Of a stretch of DNA of 64,000 nucleotides, positions 17,184 through 23,584 are shown piece by piece (within the stretch, counting starts at the first letter, position 1; each line of letters begins with the position of its first letter). This DNA is from Eubacteriales bacterium (GTDB taxonomy: Bacteria > Bacillota > Clostridia > Oscillospirales > Oscillospiraceae), in the NCBI GenBank assembly GCA_030536515.1, contig JAUNPV010000006.1, positions 61,312 to 125,311 of the forward strand, read 5' to 3'. The notes under the pieces were generated by a model. The model did no database searches. It was not told the DNA's origin and worked only from the letters and a program-made list of their open reading frames with translations. The position numbers were made by a program, and so were the translations under genes.

Positions 17184-17876
17184 TTGTTTAGAGGCAAAAA
17201 GTATCAGGAGAGCGCCAAGCTGATTGACCGCTCCGTTCAGTATGACCCCAACGAAGCCCTGGATCTGGTTGTGAAGGGCGCTTCCGCTAAGTTCGACGAG
17301 ACCGTCGAGCTGCACATCAAGCTGGGCGTTGACTCCCGTCACGCTGACCAGCAGGTCCGCGGTGCCGTGGTTCTTCCCAACGGCACCGGCAAGACCCGCC
17401 GTGTTCTGGTGTTCGCCAAGGACGCCAAGGTCGAGGAGGCCAAGGCTGCCGGCGCTGACTATGTCGGCGGCATGGACCTGGTGGAGAAAATCACCAAGGA
17501 GAACTGGTTCGAGTTCGACGTGGTCGTCGCTTCCCCCGACATGATGGGCATTGTCGGCCGTCTTGGTAAGGTTCTGGGCCCCAAGGGTCTGATGCCCTCC
17601 CCCAAGGCCGGCACCGTCACCCCCAACGTGGCCGCTGCCGTCAAGGAGATTAAGGCCGGTAAGGTCGAGTACCGTCTGGACAAGACCAACATCATTCACT
17701 GCCCCATCGGCAAGGTCTCCTTCGGCGCTGAGAAGCTCCAGGAGAACATGGACACCCTGATGACTGCCGTCGTCAAGGCCAAGCCCGCCGCCGCCAAGGG
17801 CCAGTATATCAAGTCCTGCACCGTGGTCTCCACCATGGGCCCCGGCGTGAAGGTCTCCACTGCCAAGTATCTGTAA
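17184..17876 (+). CDS. rplA: 50S ribosomal protein L1
   Basis: A 230-residue L1 that starts at TTG ([14 protein letters not shown]), with GGAGG 8 bases upstream. A GTG farther upstream lies inside the L1-binding motif and adds residues foreign to L1. Typical L1 motifs are [35 protein letters not shown] and [12 protein letters not shown]1 binds 23S rRNA and usually represses its own operon. A strong terminator follows, so rplJ and rplL are not read through from here. Confidence 0.96.
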
Positions 17877-17890
17877 GATGCGCTGTTTTA

Positions 17891-17925
17891 CCCCCACAGG
17901 CGTAAGCCTGTGGGGGTTTTCTTTG
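17891..17925 (+). terminator. Intrinsic terminator of the rplKA operon
   Basis: CCCCCACAGGC-GTAA-GCCTGTGGGGG then TTTTCTTT. An 11-bp perfect stem. Confidence 0.95.
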
Positions 17926-17949
17926 TACAGACCCAATATTGTGGGCACC

Positions 17950-18285
17950 CGTAGGGCCCGGCATCCTTGACGGGCCAGTGCACAGGGCGGCACGTCCGGG
18001 AGGCCGTGCCCTACGGGGTGGTGAAAATTTAGCAACGCACCCACAATACCTTCCCCCGGGGGTGGTGCTCTGCGCAGCAGATAAAAATAGAACGATTGCC
18101 GGTGGCAATCGCTCCTTAATTCAATAGGTGGCCGAGCGCAAGCGAGGTCGGATGAGGGATGGCGTGCAGTTATGGCTTGTACCATTTGGCAGTAGTGCAT
18201 ACCGGGTCCAGCCTGTCGCCATCCCTCATCAGTCACCAGTCTGCGGACTGGTGACAGCTTCCCCCCGGGGGAAGCTATGGGGTGC
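17950..18285. repeat. Family C repeat (left flank of the BlaI/M56 module)
   Basis: It contains GTAGGGCCCGG..CCCTACGG, CCTTCCCCCGGGGG, then GGATGAGGGATGGCGTGCAG...GTCGCCATCCCTCATC and AGTCTGCGGACTGGTGACAGCTTCCCCCC. The right half (about 18150-18285) is nearly identical in order and sequence to 21000-21130 on the other side of the module. No gene is seen in this 521-base gap. Confidence 0.75.
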
Positions 18286-18310
18286 TTCCTAATTTATTAA
18301 GTTTTCCTTA

Positions 18311-18378
18311 TACTACGGTTGTAGTATTGACATTTTGATAAGACTGTGGTAGTATAGCATCGTAGCTACTACTATTGT
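18311..18378 (+). promoter_or_regulatory. Promoter and operators of the BlaI/M56 module
   Basis: Promoter TTGACA (18327-18332), 17 bases, TAGTAT (18350-18355). The perfect inverted repeat TACTAC-GGTT-GTAGTA (18311-18326) abuts the -35, and a second set of TAGTA...TACTACTA half-sites spans the -10 and start region. TAC/GTA inverted repeats are typical BlaI/MecI operators, so autorepression by the first gene is likely. Confidence 0.8.
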
Positions 18379-18397
18379 CTTACAGGAGGACTGTCCT

Positions 18398-18769
18398 ATG
18401 GAAATTAAACTGGTGGATTCGGAATTGAAGGTCATGGATGTTCTGTGGAAGCAGGGGGACCTGCCTGCCCGGTCTGTTGCCCAGGTGCTGACCGGGGAGC
18501 TGGGGTGGAATGTGAACACCACCTATACCCTTATCAAGCGGTGCATCAGTAAAGGGGCCATCCAGCGGACCGAGCCGAATTTTATGTGCCACGCCCTGAT
18601 TCCCAAGCAGGCCGTTCAGGAGGCGGAAACCAACGAGCTGATTCAAAAGGTATTCGACGGCTCTGCGGACAAGCTCTTTGCCGCCCTGCTGGGCCGGAAA
18701 AAGCTGAGTCCCCAGCAGATTGCCCATCTGAAGCAGATTGTCGGTGACCTGGATGAGGTGACGCCATGA
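18398..18769 (+). CDS. BlaI/MecI/CopY-family transcriptional repressor
   Basis: A 123-residue winged-helix repressor: LVDSELKVMDVLWKQGDLPARSVAQVL, then NVNTTYTLIKRCISKGAIQR as the recognition helix and wing, and a C-terminal dimerisation helix. In this family the repressor is cleaved or released when the partner M56 membrane protease senses a signal. The stop overlaps the start of the M56 gene (ATGA), and matching operators lie upstream. It sits between rplA and rplJ, an unusual place. Confidence 0.93.
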   Translation: MEIKLVDSELKVMDVLWKQGDLPARSVAQVLTGELGWNVNTTYTLIKRCISKGAIQRTEPNFMCHALIPKQAVQEAETNELIQKVFDGSADKLFAALLGRKKLSPQQIAHLKQIVGDLDEVTP

Positions 18770-20931
18770 GTCTGACGGAAATGAGCCTTGCCGGGACCGT
18801 GATGATTCTGGTCATTGCCGCTGTGCGCTGCTTCACCGTCAACCGGCTGCCCAAAAGCACCTTTTCCCTGCTGTGGCTGGTGGCCCTGGTCCGGCTGCTG
18901 GTGCCCTACTCCCTGCCGTCGGTTTACAGCGTGTATTCCATGGTAGACCGGCTGCCAGCGGCCCAGCCTGTGGCGGCTCCCCCGGCTCCCATCCCCTTCT
19001 CCCCTGTTCAGCCTGAGGCTCCGCTGGCCGTCACCGGTCCCGGGGCGGCGGCCAGGCCGGTGAATTGGTGGGCTGTCCTCTGGCTGGCCGGTGCGGTGGC
19101 TTGCGTTCTCTGGTTTGCCCTTTGCTATCTCCGCTGCCGCCGGGCCTTTCGGCAGTCTGCGCCGGTGGAAAACAGCTTTGTCTGCCACTGGCTCGCCACC
19201 CACCGTCTTTATCGGCCCATAGAAATTCGCCAATCCGACCGCATCGCCGCTCCCCTGACCTACGGCGTCCTTCGGCCGGTGATTCTGGTTCCCAGTTTGA
19301 CCGACTGGACGGACACCTCCACCCTGAGCTACGTTCTGGAGCACGAATTCATCCATATCCGCCGGTTTGACGCCGCCGCCAAGCTGCTGTTCACCGCCGC
19401 ACTGTGTCTGCACTGGCTGAATCCGGCGGTGTGGCTCATGTATTTCCTTGCCAACCGGGACATGGAGCTGAGCTGCGACGAGGCCGTCATCCGGCTGTTC
19501 GGTCAAAACGCCCGTTCGGGCTATGCCATGGCGCTGATACACATGGAGGAAACCAAGGGCAGCCTTTCGCCCCTGTCCAACGGCTTCAGCAAAAATGCCA
19601 TTGAAGAAAGGATTAAAGCCATTATGAAAACAAAAAAACGCACCCTTTGGGTGTCGCTGATTGCCCTGGTGCTGGTGGGCACCGTGGCCATTCTCTTTGC
19701 CACCTCCCCCAAGGAGGCCACGGCCCCCGAGACCACCGCCGAGACCGGCTCCGTCCGGCTCCTGGACGGCATCACCCTCCAGCTGCCCCCATCGGTCTCC
19801 CGCCAGGCCGTGTCCGACACCCGGGACGAATTTACCCGGGACGGCCAGGTCATCGGCGGCCTTGCGGTTCTGGAGCTGACTGTGGACCAGATGCAGGACC
19901 AAGCGCAGCTGCTTACTTATCTGCAAACCAATATCGCCGAAGGACTGCGGCCTGCTGATTTTGACTACTATATGGCCTCCAGCGGCAGCATCGGGGAAAC
20001 GGTCATTGAAACAGGCACCCTGGACCGGCACTTCACCCACCACATCTACCAGGGACAGGCCGCCTCCTACGACCTCTGGTTTGAGGACCCGCTGTCCAAC
20101 ACCGGGGAGGTCCAGCAGATTGCCGCCAGCATCCGCTCTGAGGACCTTACGGCCTATGCCCCGTCCTCCGGCTTCCGCCCCGAGGCTGTGGAGCGCATTG
20201 CCTTTGATAACTATTCCCTGCCCGACGGCAGCTGGACCGCAGAGGATTTACAGGCCCTGCTGACGGCCATTGGGGAAGACGCCGCCGCCGGGACCATGAT
20301 TCCCGCCGGTCCCCACGCCCAGTTCCACTTTGATGACAGCACCTACGCCATCTTCGAGGAAGGGACCCATGACTCGCCCTACATTCTGCTGGATCTGTTT
20401 GCGCAGGACGGCAGCCTGACCTACACCGTCTACCCGGAATGCGAAAGCATCCTGGCCTGGATGGAGGCCCGGGGCATTTTGGAAACAATGCACGGCTCCG
20501 TGCTGGTGACGTGCACAGGCCCAAATTCGGAAGCGCTACCCTTTACCTTCAACGTTCCCGACGGATATGAGATAACGGCTGACTCTGACACCGCCGTGAC
20601 CATAACGCGGGACGGCCAGGCTGTGGGCGGCATTCGCCTGACTGATTTGGATGAAAGCGGGGTTTTCGACAGCGAAAACAGCCGGTTGTCCGACTATCTG
20701 GACCAGCTCGCCCCCTCTCCTCTGATAGCGGAATACCTCAGTTTGAACTTCGGCGGCGACGCCTATATCACCCTGAAAATCACCGACCCGGCCACCGGCA
20801 AAGTCTGGGAGCAGTCCCACCATCTGTTCCCCCGGGATGGCGTCTACTTTGACTACTGGGTGGATTATGCCCTTGTCACAGAAGATGAGCGGGATGCGAT
20901 TTTTGCAGCAATCCAAAAGACGGAGAATTGA
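18766..20931 (+). CDS. M56-family (BlaR1-like) membrane metalloprotease with tandem extracytoplasmic modules
   Basis: A 721-residue sensor protease. N-terminal membrane helices at about 10-50 and 100-122 surround a Pro-rich linker. The M56 protease domain has H193-E-x-x-H197 and the downstream MELSCDEAVIRLFG block, and a final helix lies at about 292-312. The C-terminal 400 residues are outside the membrane and are not the penicillin-binding domain of BlaR1. They hold two related modules (about 335-458 and 592-718; compare FTRDGQVIGGLAVLEL with ITRDGQAVGGIRLTDL) around a distinct central segment. The signal is unknown; a beta-lactam sensor is unlikely because no SxxK/KTG set is present. No target gene other than itself is adjacent. 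Confidence 0.88.
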   Translation: MSLTEMSLAGTVMILVIAAVRCFTVNRLPKSTFSLLWLVALVRLLVPYSLPSVYSVYSMVDRLPAAQPVAAPPAPIPFSPVQPEAPLAVTGPGAAARPVNWWAVLWLAGAVACVLWFALCYLRCRRAFRQSAPVENSFVCHWLATHRLYRPIEIRQSDRIAAPLTYGVLRPVILVPSLTDWTDTSTLSYVLEHEFIHIRRFDAAAKLLFTAALCLHWLNPAVWLMYFLANRDMELSCDEAVIRLFGQNARSGYAMALIHMEETKGSLSPLSNGFSKNAIEERIKAIMKTKKRTLWVSLIALVLVGTVAILFATSPKEATAPETTAETGSVRLLDGITLQLPPSVSRQAVSDTRDEFTRDGQVIGGLAVLELTVDQMQDQAQLLTYLQTNIAEGLRPADFDYYMASSGSIGETVIETGTLDRHFTHHIYQGQAASYDLWFEDPLSNTGEVQQIAASIRSEDLTAYAPSSGFRPEAVERIAFDNYSLPDGSWTAEDLQALLTAIGEDAAAGTMIPAGPHAQFHFDDSTYAIFEEGTHDSPYILLDLFAQDGSLTYTVYPECESILAWMEARGILETMHGSVLVTCTGPNSEALPFTFNVPDGYEITADSDTAVTITRDGQAVGGIRLTDLDESGVFDSENSRLSDYLDQLAPSPLIAEYLSLNFGGDAYITLKITDPATGKVWEQSHHLFPRDGVYFDYWVDYALVTEDERDAIFAAIQKTEN

Positions 20932-20959
20932 CCGGATTGTCCCGGCGGCGCACCCTAAT

Positions 20960-21130
20960 ACCTTCCCCCGGGGGGAAGGTGGCACGGCGTAGCCGTGACG
21001 GATGAGGGATGGCGTGCAGTTATGACTTGCAGCATCTGACGGTGGTGCATACCGTGTCCAGCCTGTCGCCATCCCTCATCAGTCACCAGTCTGCGGACTG
21101 GTGACAGCTTCCCCCCGGGGGAAGCTATTG
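20960..21130. repeat. Family C repeat (right flank of the BlaI/M56 module)
   Basis: Starts CCTTCCCCCGGGGGGAAGG-TGGCACGGCGTAGCCGTGACGGATGAGGG, includes TGGCGTGCAGTTATGACTTG...GTCGCCATCCCTCATC, and ends GGTGACAGCTTCCCCCCGGGGGAAGC. It is in the same orientation as, and very similar to, the copy at 18150-18285. Confidence 0.8.
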
Positions 21131-21164
21131 GGCCGGTGGAAGGCTTTGGGGCGGGAGAAATTTT

Positions 21165-21370
21165 TTACCGCACCCGTAGGGGAGGGTCACTGACCCTCCC
21201 GTCGGCCCCCGGCGAGGGGGCCGCAATCGGCTTTCCAATCAGGAAAGCCGATTCAGCTGCATTTACCGTTCAGCAAGCACGGACCTGTGCCGCGCTTTAG
21301 GTTGCTGCCCGCATTCCTCATCCGCCCCAGTGTGCGCACTGGGGCACCTTCCCCCCGGGGGAAGGTTTTG
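21165..21370. repeat. Second family C-type repeat before the rplJ promoter
   Basis: It contains GGAGGGTCACTGACCCTCC, AATCGGCTTTCC..GGAAAGCCGATT, CCAGTGTGCGCACTGG and a closing CACCTTCCCCCCGGGGGAAGG. It fills the rest of the gap up to the rplJ promoter. No gene is seen. Confidence 0.65.
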
Positions 21371-21406
21371 GGACGGGAGATTTGTTGATTTTTCTGAAAA
21401 TAATGC

Positions 21407-21435
21407 TTGACATATCTATATAAATATGGTACACT
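21407..21435 (+). promoter_or_regulatory. Promoter of rplJ-rplL
   Basis: TTGACA, 17 A/T-rich bases, TACACT. It gives rplJL an independent transcript starting just before the L10 leader. Confidence 0.88.
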
Positions 21436-21439
21436 CTAG

Positions 21440-21538
21440 TAGTTGCCAAAGACAGCAGGTATCCAGTAAATCCTGCCGAGGTGCGTTGAATGAGATTTCT
21501 GCGTGTCTTTCTGTCTTCTGGCAGGAAGACACTTTTTT
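21440..21538 (+). promoter_or_regulatory. L10 leader with attenuator
   Basis: The sequence AGACAGCAGGT...TCCTGCCGAGGTGCG is the conserved L10-leader pattern bound by the L10(L12) complex. It is followed by a terminator, GTGTCTT...AAGACAC then TTTTTT (21503-21538). Excess L10-L12 favours termination and lowers rplJL expression. This autoregulation is established for Firmicutes. Confidence 0.88.
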
Positions 21539-21557
21539 ATTTTCGGAGGTGAAAATT

Positions 21558-22085
21558 ATGCCCAACGCTAAGGTTCTTGAGAGCAAGAAGGCAGTCGTTG
21601 AATCCCTGACCGGCAAGATTAAGGAAGCTACTTCCGTGGTTTTCGTCGATTACAAGGGCATCACTGTTGCTCAGGATACCGAGCTGCGTAAGCAGTTCCG
21701 TGAGGCCGATGTGGAATACTCCGTTGTTAAGAACACTCTGACCAATTTCGCAACCAAGAATGCCGGTTACGACTTTGCCGAGGTTCTGAACGGCACTACC
21801 GCTATGGCTTCCACCACCGGCGACCCCATCGCCCCTGCCCGCATCATCTGCGAGTTCGCCAAGAAGAACAAGCTGAAGACCCTGTCCATCAAGGGCGGCG
21901 TCGTGGAAGGCTCTGTCCTGTCCGCCGATCAGCTGAACGGCTTTGGTGAGCTGCCCAGCAAGAATGCCCTGGTCGCTTCTGTCCTGGGTACCTTCCTGGC
22001 ACCTATCTCCAGCTTGGCCTTCGTTCTGGATCAGATCCGGATGCAGAAGGACGGCTCCGCTCCTGCCGCAGAAGCAGAAGCCTAA
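21558..22085 (+). CDS. rplJ: 50S ribosomal protein L10
   Basis: A 175-residue L10. The N-terminal rRNA-binding domain (VVESLTGKIKEATSVVFVDYKGITVAQDTELRK) is followed by the C-terminal helix that carries L7/L12 dimers (ASVLGTFLAPISSLAFVLDQIRMQK). The ATG at 21558 follows GGAGGTG; the open frame upstream is the L10 leader. It is cotranscribed with rplL. Confidence 0.97.
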   Translation: MPNAKVLESKKAVVESLTGKIKEATSVVFVDYKGITVAQDTELRKQFREADVEYSVVKNTLTNFATKNAGYDFAEVLNGTTAMASTTGDPIAPARIICEFAKKNKLKTLSIKGGVVEGSVLSADQLNGFGELPSKNALVASVLGTFLAPISSLAFVLDQIRMQKDGSAPAAEAEA

Positions 22086-22663: not shown

Positions 22664-23584
22664 ATGGATTTAGAATCAACCCTGTCCACCATTGGGGATA
22701 TGCTCCCGGAGGACCTGGACATTGGACAGATTGTTTCCTCGGCCTCGGATTATCTCCCCGACCAGCTGGAGGGGGTCATCCGGCACGCCGCCCGGTATGT
22801 GCCCACGGAGCTGGAGCTGACCACGGCACTGCAGTTTCTGCTGTATTTCTCCGTGGCCTCTCTGGTGCTGGGGGTCCTGGGCCGGGTGGTGCTGGGCAGG
22901 CGGTCCAGCCTGAACCACTCGCTGTCCTCGGTGATGGGCATTTTGTTTGTCTACGCCGTGACCATTGTGGTGTTCACCTTCAAGCCCTGGGAGCTGCACA
23001 ACCTGCTGTCTCCCCTGCCCTTTGTGACGCTGTCCGGGGACTATCTCATCATTCTGCCCATGATGGACACCCAGCTGCCGGCCCTCTGCTCGGAGCTTCT
23101 GGCCCTGGTGATTCTGGCCTTCCTGGTGAACCTGCTGGACACCTTCATGCCCAAGGGCAAGGACATCATCTCCTGGTACATTCTCCGGTTTATCACCGTG
23201 GTGCTGGCCATGGGGCTGCACATCGTGGTCCGGTGGGCCTTCCATACGTATCTGCCCGATGTGCTGGTGACCTACGCCCCGGGCATTCTGCTGGCGCTGC
23301 TGGCCTTTATGGTGCTGGCGGGGCTGCTGAATCTGGTGCTGGGGCTGGTGCTTACCATTATGAATCCCTTTATGGGGGCCATGTACACCTTTTTCTTCTC
23401 CAACATCATCGGCAAGCAGATCAGCAAGGCCATTTTCTCCGCTGCCATTGTCTGCGGCGTGTTCTACTGCCTGAACCTGTTTGGCTTTACGGTCATCCAC
23501 ATCACCGCCGCCGCCCTGGCCGCCTACATCCCTCTGGTCATTGTGCTGCTGCTTCTGTGGTATCTGATTGGGCACGTTTTATAA
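22664..23584 (+). CDS. Polytopic membrane protein of unknown function
   Basis: A 306-residue protein with a soluble N-terminal segment of about 65 residues (two amphipathic stretches) and then about seven or eight hydrophobic helices. I see no transporter signature, catalytic motif or charged membrane residues that assign a function; part of the glycine-containing helix pattern is faintly CvpA-like, but not enough to name it. The start at 22664 has AAAGGA 7 bases upstream. It stands alone between the rplL terminator and a palindromic repeat that may end its transcript. Confidence 0.8.
   Translation: MDLESTLSTIGDMLPEDLDIGQIVSSASDYLPDQLEGVIRHAARYVPTELELTTALQFLLYFSVASLVLGVLGRVVLGRRSSLNHSLSSVMGILFVYAVTIVVFTFKPWELHNLLSPLPFVTLSGDYLIILPMMDTQLPALCSELLALVILAFLVNLLDTFMPKGKDIISWYILRFITVVLAMGLHIVVRWAFHTYLPDVLVTYAPGILLALLAFMVLAGLLNLVLGLVLTIMNPFMGAMYTFFFSNIIGKQISKAIFSAAIVCGVFYCLNLFGFTVIHITAAALAAYIPLVIVLLLLWYLIGHVL

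Follow-up and report, generated by a model that had tools for sequence, protein, structure and literature searches.

The 64,000-nt stretch of DNA analysed here (hereafter the window) lies on a contig (C36) of the 2.63-Mb draft genome of a member of the Eubacteriales, and holds a ribosomal protein gene block whose two halves, rplKA and rplJL, are separated by genes for a BlaI-type repressor and an M56 family metalloprotease. The order along this region is nusG, rplK, rplA, a terminator-like stem, a repeat array, the repressor gene, the protease gene, a second repeat array, a promoter with an L10 leader, rplJ and rplL. The left flank of the seam is rplA (17187–17876; this and all other stranded features given here are on the + strand), an open reading frame (ORF) that constitutes the single L1 match in this genome, followed by a strong terminator-like stem with a T-rich tail (17890–17917, from the terminator listing). 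The left composite repeat array, to which no strand is assigned, occupies positions 17946–18283 and consists of an inverted-repeat element (17946–18019) and a palindrome-rich element (18125–18283). The promoter listing places the blaI promoter, TTGACA-17-TAGTAT, at 18327–18355, ahead of the genes for the repressor (123 aa; 18398–18769) and the M56 membrane metalloprotease (721 aa; 18766–20931), which overlap by 4 bp. The right composite repeat array (20955–21372, likewise unstranded), with parts at 20955–21130, 21165–21290 and 21306–21372, separates the protease gene from the rplJL promoter, TTGACA-17-TACACT (21407–21435, promoter listing), and the L10 leader (RF00557, 46.8 bits versus a gathering score of 44; 21428–21547). 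The right flank of the seam is rplJ (21558–22085; PF00466 and the L10 equivalog NF000955), with which rplL (L7/L12; 22142–22513) remains, as indicated by the comparison of rplJ–rplL gaps described below. All of the parts listed in a preliminary description of this DNA, namely the terminator, the repeats, the BlaI-type repressor, the M56 protease, the rplJ promoter and the L10 leader, were found to be present. The first ORF after rplL (22664–23584) has no Pfam match and is therefore not rpoB.

The repressor passes the BlaI/MecI/CopY family model PF03965 (E 2.2e-21; 76.8 bits versus a gathering score of 22.6), and the protease matches PF05569 (E 1e-47; 163 bits) and carries the motifs HEFIH at residue 193 (HExxH) and ELSCD at residue 234 (E..D). 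BlaR1 from the PDB aligns with residues 103–283 of the protease, the last hydrophobic segment of which spans residues 291–316. Both cassette proteins score far under the cut-offs of the curated BlaI, MecI and BlaR1 models; in the case of the BlaR1 model NF000326, 89.6 bits were obtained versus a cut-off of 400, with an alignment over residues 11–312 only. The C-terminal part of the protease comprises two mutually related segments (24% identity, E 7e-7). No penicillin-binding sensor domain was found in it, nor any recognised sensor domain in Pfam up to E 10, where HtaA alone appeared, below threshold (E 0.059), and single-sequence AlphaFold2 modelling of residues 310–721 gave no usable structure (mean predicted local distance difference test score of 37). 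This C-terminus is nearly unique, as 300 genomes of the family yielded two weak matches, both in one genome (G371; 32% and 21%). The nearest relatives found for the cassette lie on contig C33 of G070 (BlaI 73%, N-terminal part of M56 54%), followed by Acutalibacter sp. 1XD8-36 (locus L147; 66% and 50%) and G121 (63% and 40%); in all three the repressor precedes the protease, and none of them is at the seam but at other places. A whole-protease search of 136 genus genomes at E 1e-50 returned, besides the present genome, G070 and G121 only. Between the two arrays the repressor and protease are the only genes recognised, with no transposase or integrase. The check for a resistance target covered the adjoining genes, rplA and rplJ, together with the ORF at 22664–23584.

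Three operator-like dyads, with 0, 2 and 2 mismatches to TACTACNNNNGTAGTA, follow one another in 28-bp steps across the blaI promoter. Operator 1 (TACTACGGTTGTAGTA; 18311–18326) is situated immediately 5′ of the -35, operator 2 (18339–18354) overlaps the -10 and operator 3 (18367–18382) lies 3′ of the -10, the latter two at positions equivalent to those of dyads in two homologous modules. These modules, from G070 and Acutalibacter, likewise display three dyads (5′ of the -35, on the -10 and downstream), the steps being 26–28 bp across the three modules. Matches to TACTACNNNNGTAGTA in the window numbered three versus 0.17 expected, and a search of the whole genome with at most one mismatch returned the module's own place as the sole match; the looser homolog consensus ACTAYNGNNRTAGT, which was searched in the window only, matched operator 1 alone. 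The statement in the preliminary description that the module has its own promoter and BlaI-type operators is thus borne out by the promoter and the three predicted dyads. As these predicted operators lie at its own promoter and no other close match occurs in the genome, the repressor probably controls only itself. Regulation of the ribosomal genes by the repressor was considered as the principal interpretation and rejected, there being one operator place genome-wide at this threshold. The other M56 loci of the genome (L148, L149 and L150) each have different promoter dyads, as judged by eye, which suggests that the repressor–operator pairs of different modules are insulated from one another.

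The interval between rplA and rplJ was then compared across the genus. Searches for L1 and L10 in 101 genomes detected L1 in 74, L10 in 75 and neither in 21; genomes in which only L1 (five) or only L10 (five) was found had to remain unpaired, and a number of partial or second matches were left out of the pairing (G027:C31, G028:C29, G052:C300 for both L1 and L10, G078:C34, G019:C100 and a 35-aa L10 piece of G021). In 52 genomes both genes lie on one contig, and 50 of these have them collinear and no more than 5 kb apart; in the two remaining genomes they are 64.9 kb apart and on opposite strands, respectively. The 50 collinear intervals (the present one included) measure 189–275 bp in 19 genomes, 330–446 bp in three and 604–4308 bp in 28. 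The rplK–rplA gap spans 82–106 bp in all 39 loci where it could be measured, and the rplJ–rplL gap 50–129 bp in all 47; of the three gaps, the rplA|rplJ seam alone therefore varies strongly. A tblastn search with the repressor and the protease domain did not detect the cassette in any of the 49 further collinear intervals. Since 19 of the 50 sites are empty and none of the other intervals carries the module, the module is an insertion, as the preliminary description had inferred; the outcome that it named as refuting a recent insertion, the module at this locus in all close relatives with no empty site, did not arise. An open-access literature search (not full-text) found no paper on rplA–rplJ insertions in this group.

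The same description held that the insert had split the block; the comparison supports neither this nor the idea that the insert brought in the terminator and promoter. A terminator-like site within 90 nt 3′ of rplA was detected in 46 of the 50 intervals, where dinucleotide shuffles predict 1.0, and all 50 have a TTGAC-type promoter ahead of rplJ (1.3 expected from shuffles). On visual inspection a stem can also be made out in the four intervals that the terminator search missed (G053, G096, G074 and G060), its T tail being poor in three, and all 50 intervals fold 3′ of rplA at -9 kcal or better in a looser stem test that had no shuffle control. By eye, both signals are visible in the empty intervals, and six genus cases in which the two genes are unlinked (G054, G034, G057, G093, G097 and G009) likewise have a stem behind rplA and a promoter ahead of rplJ. 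Sites without an insert thus already have a terminator and a promoter, which makes the split older than the insert. At three short sites, L065 (G007, 189 bp), L066 (G055, 189 bp) and L067 (G003, 195 bp), the rplA stem and the rplJ promoter share bases, with the -35 TTGACA within the stem, the T-run in the spacer and the -10 at 17 nt; in G003 the shared stem contains a compensated change.

Nor does the assumption that rplK, rplA, rplJ and rplL are normally adjacent hold throughout the family, in which it often fails. A survey of 110 genomes, reduced to 103 other-genus genomes by the omission of seven (three of the genus itself and four without an L10 match), found a short interval (184–438 bp) in 44, an interval of 1576–3321 bp in four, other same-contig arrangements in five and the two genes on different contigs in 50. 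At least 30 of these 50 have more than 5 kb of contig at the place where the partner would be expected, and rplL follows rplJ in all seven separated cases that were checked.

All 50 intervals of the genus were inspected; together, the 28 long ones contain 65 ORFs with a length of 90 aa or more. These occupants are mostly unrelated, as an all-against-all comparison produced 13 matching pairs between different genomes. Shared occupants include a metallophosphoesterase (G015, G016 and G075), an alanine-racemase-like gene (G059 and G064) and a DUF218 gene (G078 and G092), and further occupants with Pfam matches include SPFH, glycosyltransferase 8, pyruvyl transferase, F420-hydrogenase beta subunit, pseudouridine synthase and parts of ABC transporters. 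No transposase or integrase was found among 25 of the 34 Pfam families or among the 21 PHROG families of the occupants. On a tree of 42 rplA+rplJ pairs, from which eight of the 50 loci were excluded as too short, the state 'occupied' requires 12 changes, at least 10 of them forced by well-supported branches, and the state 'empty' requires 10, of which at least eight are forced; 86 and 27 of 500 shuffles, respectively, were as low, which indicates weak clustering. Loss is directly visible in G060, whose 330-bp gap retains the tail of an ORF that is complete in its sister G091 (86% over 279 bp). The present species stands alone on an unresolved fork of this tree, and the seam of G070, the genome with the nearest cassette relative, holds other genes. 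Visual inspection of two short intervals, L085 (G076, 420 bp) and L086 (G041, 446 bp), revealed an inverted-repeat element that starts with GTAGGG, and no long ORF was seen in them. In G076 the terminator sequence recurs in part on both sides, in the manner of a target duplication.

Taken together, these observations lead us to conclude, with a probability of roughly three in four, that the boundary between rplKA and rplJL is a recurrent site of insertion and turnover in this genus and that its occupant in the present genome is a self-contained blaI-M56 cassette. Each unit would possess its own ends, with a terminator after rplA and a promoter and L10 leader before rplJ, and DNA could therefore enter between the units without breaking either. 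Different genes would thus have been gained and lost at the seam many times, the probable route being homologous recombination of imported with resident DNA at their conserved ribosomal flanks; both halves of a turnover site between core genes, conserved flanks and diverse content, are observed. By analogy with the BlaI/BlaR1 paradigm, the repressor would bind the three predicted operators over its own promoter until an extracellular signal, perceived through the C-terminal region of the M56 protein, activated the cytosolic zinc protease, which would in turn inactivate the repressor and so induce the cassette itself. Since many different genes come and go at this seam in relatives, the cassette seems to be a passenger rather than a built-in switch of the ribosome. 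Textbooks present rplKAJL as a conserved operon, and the significance of the finding is that the seam in its middle behaves in this genus like a site of accessory-gene turnover, with the gaps on either side hardly changing, showing how a terminator–promoter boundary can become a safe landing place. It also carries a caution, in that a regulator beside ribosomal genes in one genome does not imply a function derived from that neighbourhood. In kind the site is ordinary: a place of gene turnover, without a visible mobile element, at an already known operon seam.

Several points weigh against this conclusion. The assemblies are mostly drafts, with L1 and L10 on different contigs in 17 genomes and absent from 21, and the controls for the seam were the two neighbouring within-unit gaps. 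The Pfam check of the occupants extends to 25 of 34 families, some interval ORFs are possibly spurious (e.g. single antisense ORFs in G013 and G006), and the genome-wide operator search covered sites with up to one mismatch. The G+C content at third codon positions is 0.73–0.76 for the cassette versus 0.82–0.83 for rplA and the two next genes, and 0.76 for nusG. The DNA may also have arrived by other routes, such as transposition with subsequent loss of the ends or illegitimate joining. Finally, a tblastn search of 88 seam-side loci with the repressor and the protease domain gave a match in G098 only (L171, C28:1-3755; 722–2664), where the opposite strand of a 3.8-kb contig encodes a distinct BlaI/M56 pair (identities of 32% and 27%) that terminates some 0.9 kb past rplA; the contig lacks rplJ, and the genus search gave no L10 match in this genome. 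BlaI/M56 pairs could thus be drawn to the seam. On a rough estimate, however, chance comes near to accounting for a second instance among some 75 seams, M56 genes being frequent in the genus (matches at E 0.001 in 76 of 101 genomes). Base composition was also tried as a mark of foreign origin and rejected as not decisive, the cassette being only slightly low and nusG similar.

The preliminary description had the module enter, probably, through its flanking 'family C' repeats, taken here to be a 134-nt direct repeat (18149–18282 and 20999–21132) whose copies are 93% identical, lie 2850 bp apart and bracket both genes. On this account recombination would have brought into the seam either a circle or a composite element with the repeats at its ends, which we regard as unlikely. 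The family is indeed widespread, occurring in 92 of 136 genus genomes at E 0.001 (in many over 50–60 nt only), and is abundant in the present genome (319 and 257 candidates at first look, 40 and 6 scored). However, the two copies form no special pair, since the left one is at least as close to a copy at C4:9509 (94.4% of 143 nt) as to the right one (93.3% of 134 nt), and both sit within the larger composite arrays, the right one of which would form very stable hairpins as RNA. The palindromic family is absent from all 49 other collinear intervals even though 27 of these are occupied, short matches in G041 and G090 being to the element at 17946–18019; the longest exact match between the edges of those 27 is 7–14 nt versus 18 nt here, and the 7 kb around the G070 relative (L152) contain no match to these repeats at E 1e-6. 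A rough placement model, coarse in its gene calls and able to assign one of six repeat arrays to its intergenic list, moreover expects 1.2 comparably close repeat pairs per window by chance (probability of at least one, about 0.77). Repeat-mediated entry is thus possible and without specific support. Elsewhere, two repeat arrays in mirrored order flank about 1.1 kb at L157 (G000 C3:57311-60958), a layout like that of the cassette. An open-access literature search (not full-text) found no paper on this repeat family.

Rather than having been gained, the cassette might be old at the seam and have been lost in relatives, a scenario for which one may cite the frequency of rplKA/rplJL splits in the family, the isolated position of the species on the rplA+rplJ tree and the further BlaI/M56 pair beyond rplA in G098. 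This we judge distinctly unlikely, given that none of the other 49 collinear intervals carries the cassette, that the G098 pair is so low in identity and opposite in orientation, and that the nearest relative in the genus is found elsewhere in G070, whose own seam is otherwise occupied.

With respect to rplJL expression, no T-tailed intrinsic terminator is listed on the + strand between the M56 stop codon and the rplJ promoter, and read-through is for this reason conceivable. In 10 of the 28 occupied intervals the last ORF is co-directional and ends 3–44 bp upstream of the rplJ -35, no terminator-like stem intervening, so that read-through is a fair general question for this seam; L096 (G064), L104 (G059) and L088 (G091) are examples. 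The cassette lies directly upstream on the same strand, but it is very unlikely to regulate rplJL, whether by read-through from the induced blaI promoter or through binding of the repressor, and so to couple L10/L12 synthesis to a signal at the cell surface. No operator was found at the rplJ promoter, the sole operator place in the genome at up to one mismatch is the module's own, and all 50 intervals retain a separate promoter for rplJL. The protease gene is moreover separated from that promoter by 475 bp containing highly stable hairpins, the arrangement recurs in none of the other 49 intervals, and the G098 pair points the opposite way. The functional link to growth-rate control that had been suggested for this locus is not supported, given the first two of these findings. 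Slimmer still is the chance that occupants transcribed toward rplJL generally read through into the L10 leader, so that their gain or loss would retune the supply of L10/L12, in the present case in a signal-dependent manner through the M56 sensor.

A recurrent insertion site at the rplKA/rplJL boundary can be set beside several known systems. In the relevant portion of Oliveira et al. 2017 (PMC5635113), many gene-acquisition hotspots are reported to lack mobile elements and to show recombination at flanking core genes; the seam resembles them in its conserved core-gene flanks, its diverse and mostly unrelated cargo, its turnover and the lack of any integrase or transposase seen. It differs in that those hotspots are defined within species, whereas here one genome per species of a genus was compared, the site is a ribosomal seam and the cargo reaches about 4 kb. 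Proteobacterial splits of rplKAJL-rpoBC, as far as the pertinent part of PMC4481853 describes them, likewise fall mostly between rplKA and rplJL-rpoBC; here, however, another family is concerned, inserted genes occupy the seam and a promoter is present at every seam examined. Unlike a composite transposon or integrative element, the cassette has no transposase, integrase or unit-specific paired end repeats. It shares with BlaI/BlaR1 (and MecI/MecR1) a BlaI-family repressor, an M56 protease with HExxH and three operators, the latter number being also given for the bla region of B. licheniformis in the section of PMC3305447 dealing with it. It departs from that system in that no penicillin-binding sensor domain was found, in having rplA and rplJ in place of a resistance gene as neighbours and in scoring far under the curated cut-offs. 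Clostridium thermocellum BlaI_1845, whose regulon is a single operon, its own, according to the corresponding part of PMC8457756, is comparable in its self-only regulon (here predicted) and in the ordered dyads over its own promoter; its operon includes two further genes, whereas the cassette described here consists of repressor and protease only.

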